A stretch of DNA of 64,000 nt from Tautonia marina (lineage in GTDB: Bacteria > Planctomycetota > Planctomycetia > Isosphaerales > Isosphaeraceae): the NCBI RefSeq assembly GCF_009177065.1, contig NZ_WEZF01000011.1:62001-126000 (forward strand), read 5' to 3'. Shown piece by piece: positions 16,491-60,087 of the stretch. Under the pieces are notes generated by a model, which ran no database searches, was not told where the DNA came from, and saw nothing but the letters and a program-made list of their open reading frames with translations. The position numbers were made by a program, and so were the translations under genes. Position 1 is the first letter of the stretch, and every line of letters starts with the position of its first letter.

Positions 16491-16857
16491 CTCGCCCCCT
16501 TTTTGGCCGCCCTTTCCCCTCGATTTCGTGTGACCAAAATTCCTCGATTTCCCGATGATTTCGTCGGCCGATCTTCCTGTGGCACTCAGCCCTGGAGCCA
16601 TCCCCAGCACTCGTTCCTCGATGTTTTCCCCGTTGTGCAACCACCACTCGGCGGTTTCCGAACGATCCCGAACGTCCCTGGCTTCCTCCGTGTGTTCCTC
16701 GCACCAAATGATCGCCCCTCTGCACCAACCCAACACCGAAACACCCACCACGATTGACACCACCCACCATTCCATGCCGCCAATCCCCTCGCGCTCACCA
16801 ACGCAACATCCCCTCCGCCCAACTCCCTGGGTGCGCCTTCGCCCTCCCTCCGATTCC

Positions 16858-16975
16858 CGAAACGAACCTCCCCTCCTCACCGCAACTTCTTTCCTCACAA
16901 GAACTTTCCACCAAACCCCCGTCCCATTTCCAGCGCACCCGACGGCGCACCAGGCCGCGCACCCGACAGCGCACC
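16858..16975 (+). repeat. CGAAACGAA / 12-bp-period GCGCACC module, copy A
   Basis: CGAAACGAACC at 16858-16868 is followed by four GCGCACC heptamers starting at 16933, 16945, 16957 and 16969, exactly 12 bp apart. The first heptamer is 75 nt from the CGAAACGAACC start. Confidence 0.7.
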
Positions 16976-17030
16976 GCCGCATCCCCTCCCATCCTTATCC
17001 CTCCTCTCCACCTCCCCATCCTCCCCTCTC

Positions 17031-17059
17031 ATCCGTGTTCCATCCGTGTTTCATCCGTG
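17031..17059 (+). repeat. Triple 11-bp ATCCGTG repeat, copy 1
   Basis: ATCCGTG starts at 17031, 17042 and 17053, an exact 11-bp period, ending ATCCGTGGCT. The same array recurs at 52981-53009. Confidence 0.75.
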
Positions 17060-17084
17060 GCTCCAATCCCTCCCCCCCGATTCC

Positions 17085-17191
17085 CGAAACGAACCGAACC
17101 CGCTCGCCACAACTGATTTCCCCGCAACACAAAACCACTCCCTCCCCGGGGCGCCAAATTGCGCACCCAGGGGCGCACCCAACAGCGCACC
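17085..17191 (+). repeat. CGAAACGAA / 12-bp-period GCGCACC module, copy B
   Basis: CGAAACGAACC at 17085-17095 is followed by GCGCACC at 17161, 17173 and 17185. The period is 12 bp and the first heptamer is 76 nt from the CGAAACGAACC start, matching copy A. Confidence 0.7.
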
Positions 17192-59450: not shown

Positions 59451-59790
59451 TTGCCCAGCGTCGCGCAGCAACCATCACGCAATTTCCGGGAGCGTTTGTG
59501 ACTGGCGCGGGGGATTTTCTCGATGGTAAAGGATGAAGGCCCGTCGCCGCTCCCGATCGCTTCCCGTCCGTGCTTCGGAGGAGGAGGAGGCCGGAACGCG
59601 GGCCCGCAGCGCTCTTTGACAACCCGATCCGAATGAAACCGGTCACACGACACGACACAACACGATCCGGCCCCACGCCTCGCCTTGCTTCCCATGACAC
59701 CAACACTTCCGCGCGAAACGAACCCAATCGCTCTCGGCCTCCGAAACCTGCATCACGGGGATGACGGCCCTCTCGATCGCGTCTCGCTGA

Positions 59791-59907
59791 CGAAACGAAG
59801 GGGAGGCTTTCGCTCCAAGTCCTTGCAGTGAATCGCTCAACGTCGAATCCCTCTCCCAACGGAGGGCGCACCAAGAGCGCACCGCAAGGCGCACCAGGAG
59901 GCGCACC
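59791..59907 (+). repeat. CGAAACGAA / GCGCACC module, copy C
   Basis: CGAAACGAAG at 59791; GCGCACC at 59866, 59877, 59889 and 59901. The first heptamer is 75 nt downstream, as in copies A and B. Spacing is 11, 12 and 12 bp. Confidence 0.65.
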
Positions 59908-60004
59908 GGATCGCCCCTGACCGCCCGGCTCGTTCGACTCCCCACCTCTGCCGGCCCCCATCATCTCCCGACGAAACGAACCCAATCGGGGCAGATCGTT
60001 CCGA

Positions 60005-60087
60005 CGAAACGAACTGCCCCGATCATCGGAAGTCATGACTTCATCTCAGGTTACACCCCACCCTCCCAGCGCACCGACCGGCGCACC
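60005..60087 (+). repeat. CGAAACGAA / GCGCACC module, copy D
   Basis: CGAAACGAACT at 60005; GCGCACC at 60069 and 60081, 12 bp apart, the second 76 nt downstream. Confidence 0.55.

Follow-up and report, generated by a model that had tools for sequence, protein, structure and literature searches.

The window analysed here, a 64,000-nt stretch of a Tautonia marina contig, contains two loci 43 kb apart that carry CGAAACGAA together with phased copies of the heptamer GCGCACC, as a first-pass annotation had placed them, and neither locus overlaps any called gene, in keeping with the intergenic position expected of them. All features given below lie on the forward strand. Locus 1 has a promoter-like site, GTGACC-N17-CGATGAT (16530-16559), with one mismatch to GTGACTN17CGATNNT, and two modules. 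In module A, the word CGAAACGAA (16858-16866) is followed by the core halves CGCAAC (16881-16886; consensus CGNAAC) and CTTTCC (16904-16909; consensus TTNCG), both read directly, and by four GCGCACC in 12-nt steps (16933-16975); module B comprises CGAAACGAA at 17085-17093 and three GCGCACC in 12-nt steps (17161-17191). A separate dispersed repeat (CATCCGTGTTTC/CATCCGTGGC) occupies 17024-17073, between modules A and B, and is the source of many cross-genome DNA matches of this locus. Locus 2 has an exact promoter-like site, GTGACT-N17-CGATGGT (59498-59527), a boxA-like word TCTTTGACAAC (59613-59623) that is one base from TCTTTGACAAT of the rRNA leader in the same genome, and a spacer word CGAAACGAACCCAATC (59714-59729), a relative of the GAACGAASCCAWT of other genera. 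These are followed by module C, with CGAAACGAA at 59791-59799 and four GCGCACC in steps of 11, 12 and 12 nt (59866-59907), by a further CGAAACGAACCCAATC (59972-59987) 33 nt before module D, and by module D itself, with CGAAACGAA at 60005-60013 and two GCGCACC (60069-60087). The full unit, as read from the DNA, consists of the promoter-like site, boxA, the CGAAACGAACCCAWT spacer words, the CGNAAC...TTNCG core and the phased heptamers.

The window holds six copies of CGAAACGAA against 0.83 expected, a number reached by none of 100 shuffles. GCGCACC was found singly near expectation (21 versus 17.9; 29 of 100 shuffles reach 21); since it is not over-represented on its own, the excess resides in the phased clusters. 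The start-to-start offsets from CGAAACGAA to GCGCACC were 75, 87, 99 and 111 nt in module A, 76, 88 and 100 nt in B, 75, 86, 98 and 110 nt in C, and 64 and 76 nt in D. The heptamer counts of the first-pass annotation (four, three, four and two) are borne out by these values, and its fixed offset of 75-76 nt describes the first heptamers of A, B and C but not that of D, which starts at 64 nt. Across 58 modules of the genome that contains the window (G000; 7.07 Mb, 80 contigs), the heptamers fell into slots at 64-67, 74-77, 86-89, 97-101 and 109-111 nt, with lone cases outside the main slots at 120 and 123 nt, indicating that the 75-nt gap is one rung of a ladder with 10-12-nt steps; the heptamer steps of intergenic copies were 10, 11 and 12 nt. 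Within the gap, the core appeared at constant positions, with an A of CGNAAC at offset 26 in 55 of the 58 modules and a T of TTNCG at offset 47 in 41, and its CGTAA-like and TTACG-like halves are arranged as an inverted repeat at a distance of 21 nt, equivalent to two helical turns.

Searching G000 for CGAAACGAA followed 60-90 nt on by GCGCACC returned 114 pattern matches, in which a module with several heptamers is counted more than once, compared with none for the reversed-pattern control. The spacing took the form of phased slots rather than a random spread, and neither random spacing nor heptamers equally frequent without CGAAACGAA, the two outcomes named in advance as speaking against the module, appeared in the material examined. 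Tandem heptamers with an N3-5 spacer numbered 167 versus 3 in the control; among the 100 of these places that were listed, 93 were array or gene loci already recognised, one adjoined a gene of the NALKHGL family described below (L351), and six lay in two further array-like loci (L349 and L350) that were reached through the tandem heptamers. The CGAAACGAA...GCGCACC pair was found 12, 43 and 92 times in three other members of the genus, 0-3 times in 33 other genomes of the same family and 0-3 times in 22 genomes from the other families of the class.

A comparison with a second species (G003) was made on array loci, for 19 of 20 of which a G000 counterpart was found by similarity of the flanking DNA. 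Identity was 94% for the 10-nt word CGAAACGAAC (420 sites), 89% for boxA (66 sites), 87% for the promoter boxes (231 sites) and 86% for GCGCACC (826 sites), word figures that are inflated because the G003 loci were picked by matches to the module model and because the classes were derived from G000 copies that match. The promoter spacer reached 70%, the core 68-72%, the rest of the gap 55-60%, the spacers between heptamers 59% and other DNA 57%. Insertions and deletions amounted to 0-0.3% between the word and the first heptamer, a kept spacing that the choice of loci also favours, compared with 10% in other DNA, 2.4% within heptamers and 4.7% in the spacers between them. These values agree with the earlier description of gap DNA that is not conserved while its length is, and we take the words and their distances, not the intervening DNA, to be under selection.

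The genomic context was determined for 31 clusters with one to three recognised modules each, relative to genes predicted with a simple codon score; the clusters occupy long intergenic regions. The previous called gene lay 226-1254 bp away in 30 of the 31, the remaining cluster being located at a contig end, and the next gene, which occurs in both orientations, was 19-215 bp off in 21 of 30 clusters and 330-498 bp off in four; the other five overlap the next called gene, perhaps through misplacement of its start site. In six of the 31, the distance from the end of the cluster to the 3' end of a convergently oriented called gene is 19-58 nt. Upstream of the first module, a GTGACT-N17-CGATNNT-like site scored at least 10 of 12 in 25 clusters, 9 in five and 7 in one, compared with a peak score of 9, reached in nine of the 31, when the same DNA was scored on its reverse strand; the site at L024 is unconvincing (score 9, 33 nt before the module), and the sense orientation of modules to the promoter-like site is partly built into the design of the search. 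Exact sites numbered 56 in G000 (control 1), 77 in G002, 49 in G003 and 4 in G001, with 0-5 copies in the other 41 genomes of the family. Eight of the 56 precede NALKHGL-type genes, and others stand before three genes for DUF433-domain proteins (L056, L061 and L062) and one for a laminin-G protein, at which the module model found no match. The GTGACT promoter-like site may define a regulon.

Between the promoter-like site and the first module, TCTTTGRCAAY was found exactly at 12 of 35 G000 loci and 6 of 16 G003 loci, and at none of either on the opposite strand, loci without a recognised promoter having been left out of the count. The rRNA leader of G000 carries CTCTTTGACAATCC about 575 nt before the 16S gene; a boxA that matches the rRNA leader is present at about a third of loci, and in array loci it stands between the promoter-like site and untranslated sequence. 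In 595 kb of G000 DNA, chosen around arrays, 22 such words occurred against about 1.1 expected; a strict test assigned 15 of them to array loci, and one more lies at L011, where the array promoter is off-consensus. The other six (L013, L028, L032, L038, L039 and L068) stand outside recognised arrays and may mark further noncoding transcripts. By eye, the CCAAACAAAGCCACTTGCCAGAATGGCAGC units of L068 bear small hairpins, one form being GCCAGAATGGC and another, whose loop is inverted, GCCATTCTGGC. A pattern search of the first 200 nt at eight NALKHGL gene promoters found no boxA, and a loose boxA-like word was present within 350 nt past the stop codon in 6 of 33 NALKHGL-type genes, with none in antisense. 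Before 64 cross-phylum arrays of at least three words, a loose boxA was detected seven times upstream and not at all in three controls, a weak signal in which at least two of the seven are of low complexity; in L234, L241 and L314 the array is preceded, at a distance of about 30 nt, by a boxA-like TCTTTACAAAT. One earlier publication places boxA elements before long noncoding RNAs and credits Stringer et al. with reporting boxA before CRISPR arrays (PMC7862264).

RNA folding of 75 modules gave mean z values of -0.31 in sense and -0.61 in antisense, supporting no fold, and the window had no Rfam match above the gathering score. A hairpin in the gap was rejected, as pairing of the core halves was no better than in shuffled modules, 70 of 200 of which reach it. 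The leader of the window genus has 41% C versus 23% G (coding DNA 34 and 32%), and in the arrays of G064 and G016, from other genera, G exceeds C (30 versus 28%). The dif/XerCD and integron attC sites had been considered on account of the AAC...GTT half-sites and of GCGCACC itself, which is complementary to part of dif; compared by their usual definitions, both were set aside on spacing. The bipartite protein-binding or structural element of the first-pass annotation stands at the level of a nucleic-acid element with kept spacing, while the unit proved larger than its two parts and the tests for RNA structure found none. No description of the element was found among the titles and abstract openings of the open-access literature that was searched.

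The module also occurs within genes. G000 contains a paralogous family with STGPxTxxGK...NAxxHGL-like N-termini, here called NALKHGL, eight genes of which have the exact promoter-like site upstream, and the module model matches the 3' coding end, in sense, of four NALKHGL genes (E=5.7e-8, 2.4e-7, 8e-5 and 0.0065). In these genes CGAAACGAA (CGA AAC GAA) reads R-N-E, GCGCACC reads xR-T and (GCGCACCGAGCC)n reads (RTEP)n, and the offset from RNE to the heptamer is exactly 110 nt in all four genes checked. The codons of the first RNE were CGA in 18 of 20 genes (usage 16% among arginine codons) and GAA in 17 of 20 (usage 39%), as counted by hand over 21 genes, one of them without RNE, that include non-independent paralogs and orthologs. 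In the C-terminal region of G023 proteins, GAACGAASCC and near forms read E-R-S/T or R/Q-N-E-P (eight genes, by eye). Among 42 family ORFs from other taxa, some of which represent the same place or genome twice, the word lies inside the ORF or within 600 nt past the stop in 14, and the 13 in-ORF words are distributed over frames 0, 1 and 2 as 4, 5 and 4, some of them not near the 3' end. Given the biased codons and the differing frames in other genera, selection on the coding copies most likely acts on the nucleotides. At L351 (G000 C11:230500-235500), the conserved segments of a NALKHGL gene switch frame while the downstream module is intact, showing that derivation of arrays from genes can happen.

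The NALKHGL proteins scanned had no Pfam family at cut-off, and NCBIfam and PHROGs matches were at chance level; the AlphaFold model of the compact L328 protein (181 aa, pLDDT 83, pTM 0.67) is all-helical and gave no match below E=0.05 in the PDB or BFVD. The numbers of words and NALKHGL genes in 45 genomes are correlated (Spearman 0.53, relatedness uncorrected). G016 has 208 words and no NALKHGL gene detected, G064 has 137 words and one gene, and G006 has 19 genes and no words, mismatches which suggest that the NALKHGL family need not be the binder of the arrays.

Related arrays were detected in other genera of the Isosphaeraceae through the word GAACGAASCCAWT, with 208 copies in G016, 137 in G064, 124 in G030, 75 in G061, 58 in G059, 38 in G021, 30 in G023 and 30 in G010, against 0-1 in the controls for all eight genomes and 0-7 copies in 153 genomes from the other families of the class. 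By eye, the unit of G064 and G016 is about 90 nt long and includes an inverted copy of the GAACGAASCCAWT word, so that a hairpin is possible there. In these two genomes, the ends of many arrays seem by eye to lie within tens of bases of a convergent gene's stop codon (L209-L218). Tandem words were also found, among the matches listed, in metagenome-assembled genomes (MAGs) of Phycisphaerae, Sedimentisphaerales and Acidobacteria, besides other sources; as these matches include chance or coding cases (L283, L292 and L302), they indicate breadth, not frequency. A strict core pattern, written after examples had been seen, yielded five copies in 4 of 120 stretches listed, all from two Phycisphaerae MAGs in which others were recognised by eye, and the Phycisphaerae core ATGAACGTAA...AACAAAGGATTATG has AA, AA and TT at offsets 0, 15 and 21, as in the window genus (hand count). 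A tandem word lay in or within 600 nt past a NALKHGL ORF in 6 of the 120 stretches listed, three of the six being from one Acidobacteria MAG.

Close neighbours are scarce along the chromosomes. In G064, 61 loci over 5.1 Mb, clustered by hand from the first 100 of 137 word places, have three gaps below 20 kb versus 12.7 expected (P=0.00025) and a coefficient of variation (CV) of gaps of 0.70 versus 0.98 (P=0.001). In G000, with a locus list compiled by hand, arrays alone gave two such gaps versus 6.1 (P=0.024), arrays and NALKHGL genes together (67 loci) two versus 10.3 (P=0.0004; CV P=0.03), and the same set plus two later arrays and six promoter-only genes (75 loci) three versus 12.6 (P=0.0003). 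The signal for even spacing rises on pooling genes and arrays, though pooling adds data too, and the two are spaced as if filling common places. For the 40 promoter-like sites listed in G002, short gaps were fewer than expected (2 versus 6.1, P=0.033) with a CV like random (0.91 versus 0.97, P=0.35), and two G016 contigs had CVs of 0.37 and 0.36 versus 0.92. Planctomycete nucleoids are unusual and condensed, and the scarcity of close neighbours offers a way to test how the chromosome is organised or to approach a class of regulatory RNAs.

We regard it as rather probable that the arrays are noncoding transcripts, antiterminated and unstructured, whose phased motifs are bound by a putative binder. 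Each array locus would be a transcription unit without a protein, whose transcript is started by the dedicated promoter GTGACT-N17-CGATNNT; boxA, at about a third of loci, would load the Nus antitermination complex and allow the untranslated RNA to be completed. The transcript would bear one to several unstructured modules, each with CGAAACGAAC, 22 nt to CGNAAC, 21 nt to TTNCG and a closing series of GCGCACC in 10-12-nt steps, and these modules would be bound sequence-specifically by a protein or RNP able to recognise several words along a single strand. Genes of the NALKHGL family have the promoter-like site and the module too, the latter overlapping their 3' coding end. To what is read directly in the DNA (the words, their phasing and spacing constraint, the promoter-like site and the boxA words, together with the lack of a predicted RNA fold, the nucleotide-level constraint on ORFs and the persistence of the loci in place in a second species), this reading adds transcription and antitermination of the arrays, the existence and identity of a binder, and RNA rather than duplex DNA as the bound form, all of which we infer. 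The restriction of exact boxA to about a third of loci and the six of 22 boxA words off the arrays count against it, as does the even spacing, which a function at the DNA level explains more simply.

Such a function would be that of a chromosome organiser, the arrays being spaced duplex sites for a nucleoid or domain-boundary protein and their transcription incidental or boundary-setting. Loci more even than random in G064, G000 and the two G016 contigs would fit this explanation, as would core halves inverted at 21 nt, or two helical turns; we nevertheless think it unlikely, since boxA acts on RNA, the words run, at the loci examined, in the same direction as promoter and ORF, steps of 10, 11 and 12 nt between heptamers drift against the B-DNA turn, and the statistics rest in part on the hand-compiled G000 list, with G002 giving only P=0.033 and a random-like CV. 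Somewhat more doubtful is a selfish or formerly mobile element, in which NALKHGL units are autonomous, ORF-less copies non-autonomous and even spacing a relic of target immunity. Genes and arrays do have the promoter-like site and module in common, the frame of L351 is broken between conserved family segments beside an intact module, and tandem words in or near NALKHGL ORFs (the 6 of 120 stretches listed) and the uncorrected correlation of words with genes point the same way, but 19 of 20 loci occupy the same places in the second species, the copies are far diverged, and the NALKHGL proteins match no transposase-like family or fold.

Rho-dependent terminators, with rut-like arrays ending convergent transcripts, would account for an unstructured leader with C over G and for the six of 31 clusters that end 19-58 nt from a convergent gene; the fixed words, which rut sites are not known to have, and the excess of G over C in G064 and G016 make this very improbable. 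The first-pass annotation had offered a decayed four-codon repeat gene as an alternative, and a kernel of it persists in the (RTEP)n of the related genes, the module match to four NALKHGL 3' coding ends and the one gene with a broken frame. As a general explanation, with arrays as pseudogene remnants of an (RTEP)n C-terminus, it is contradicted and hardly credible: the frame is lost while constraint on the words is kept (subject to the ascertainment described above) and spacing is preserved above gap DNA, a boxA is added, several modules occur per locus, and the frames differ in other genera.

Returning to transcribed, antiterminated arrays, a wider proposal, which we consider speculative and improbable as a whole, is that some 50-100 of them mark planctomycete chromosomes at fairly even intervals of tens of kb and organise their domains, together with the NALKHGL family, in a system common to Isosphaeraceae and Phycisphaerae. 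If so, the arrays would be transcription-driven or RNA-based domain boundaries and the 3' ends of the NALKHGL genes would be marked as well. A multi-copy element that combines a promoter-like site of its own with a boxA of rRNA type, words selected for their spacing and coding copies in differing frames is unusual, and some short predicted planctomycete 'proteins' may be translations of the array element.

Several known systems resemble the arrays in part. The boxA of rRNA and CRISPR leaders is similarly preceded by a promoter and followed by a long untranslated stretch that includes repeats, and the array word is near that of the rRNA leader of G000; unlike those leaders, the arrays have neither rRNA nor CRISPR repeats downstream and carry the exact boxA at only about a third of loci. 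They also differ from CRISPR arrays in a mean column identity of 53% over 75 modules and in variable module spacing. REP/BIME elements are dispersed palindromic hairpin units of 20-40 nt that accompany a multi-copy protein family, RAYT, a Y1 transposase. The arrays share with them many dispersed intergenic copies and an associated multi-copy family, but gave no evidence of a hairpin in the window genus, are far diverged and keep their spacing over tens of nt, and the RAYT Y1 transposase has no counterpart match among the NALKHGL proteins scanned. CsrB-type sponge RNAs are noncoding RNAs with many short protein-binding words, as is suggested for the arrays, which differ in having dozens of loci per genome, words outside predicted hairpin loops and another word. 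The TnpB reRNA, or omega RNA, is a noncoding element over the 3' end of an ORF; the module likewise overlaps an ORF 3' end and exists in ORF-less copies, and it is distinguished by the lack of a nuclease family match, the lack of predicted structure and its tandem arrangement.
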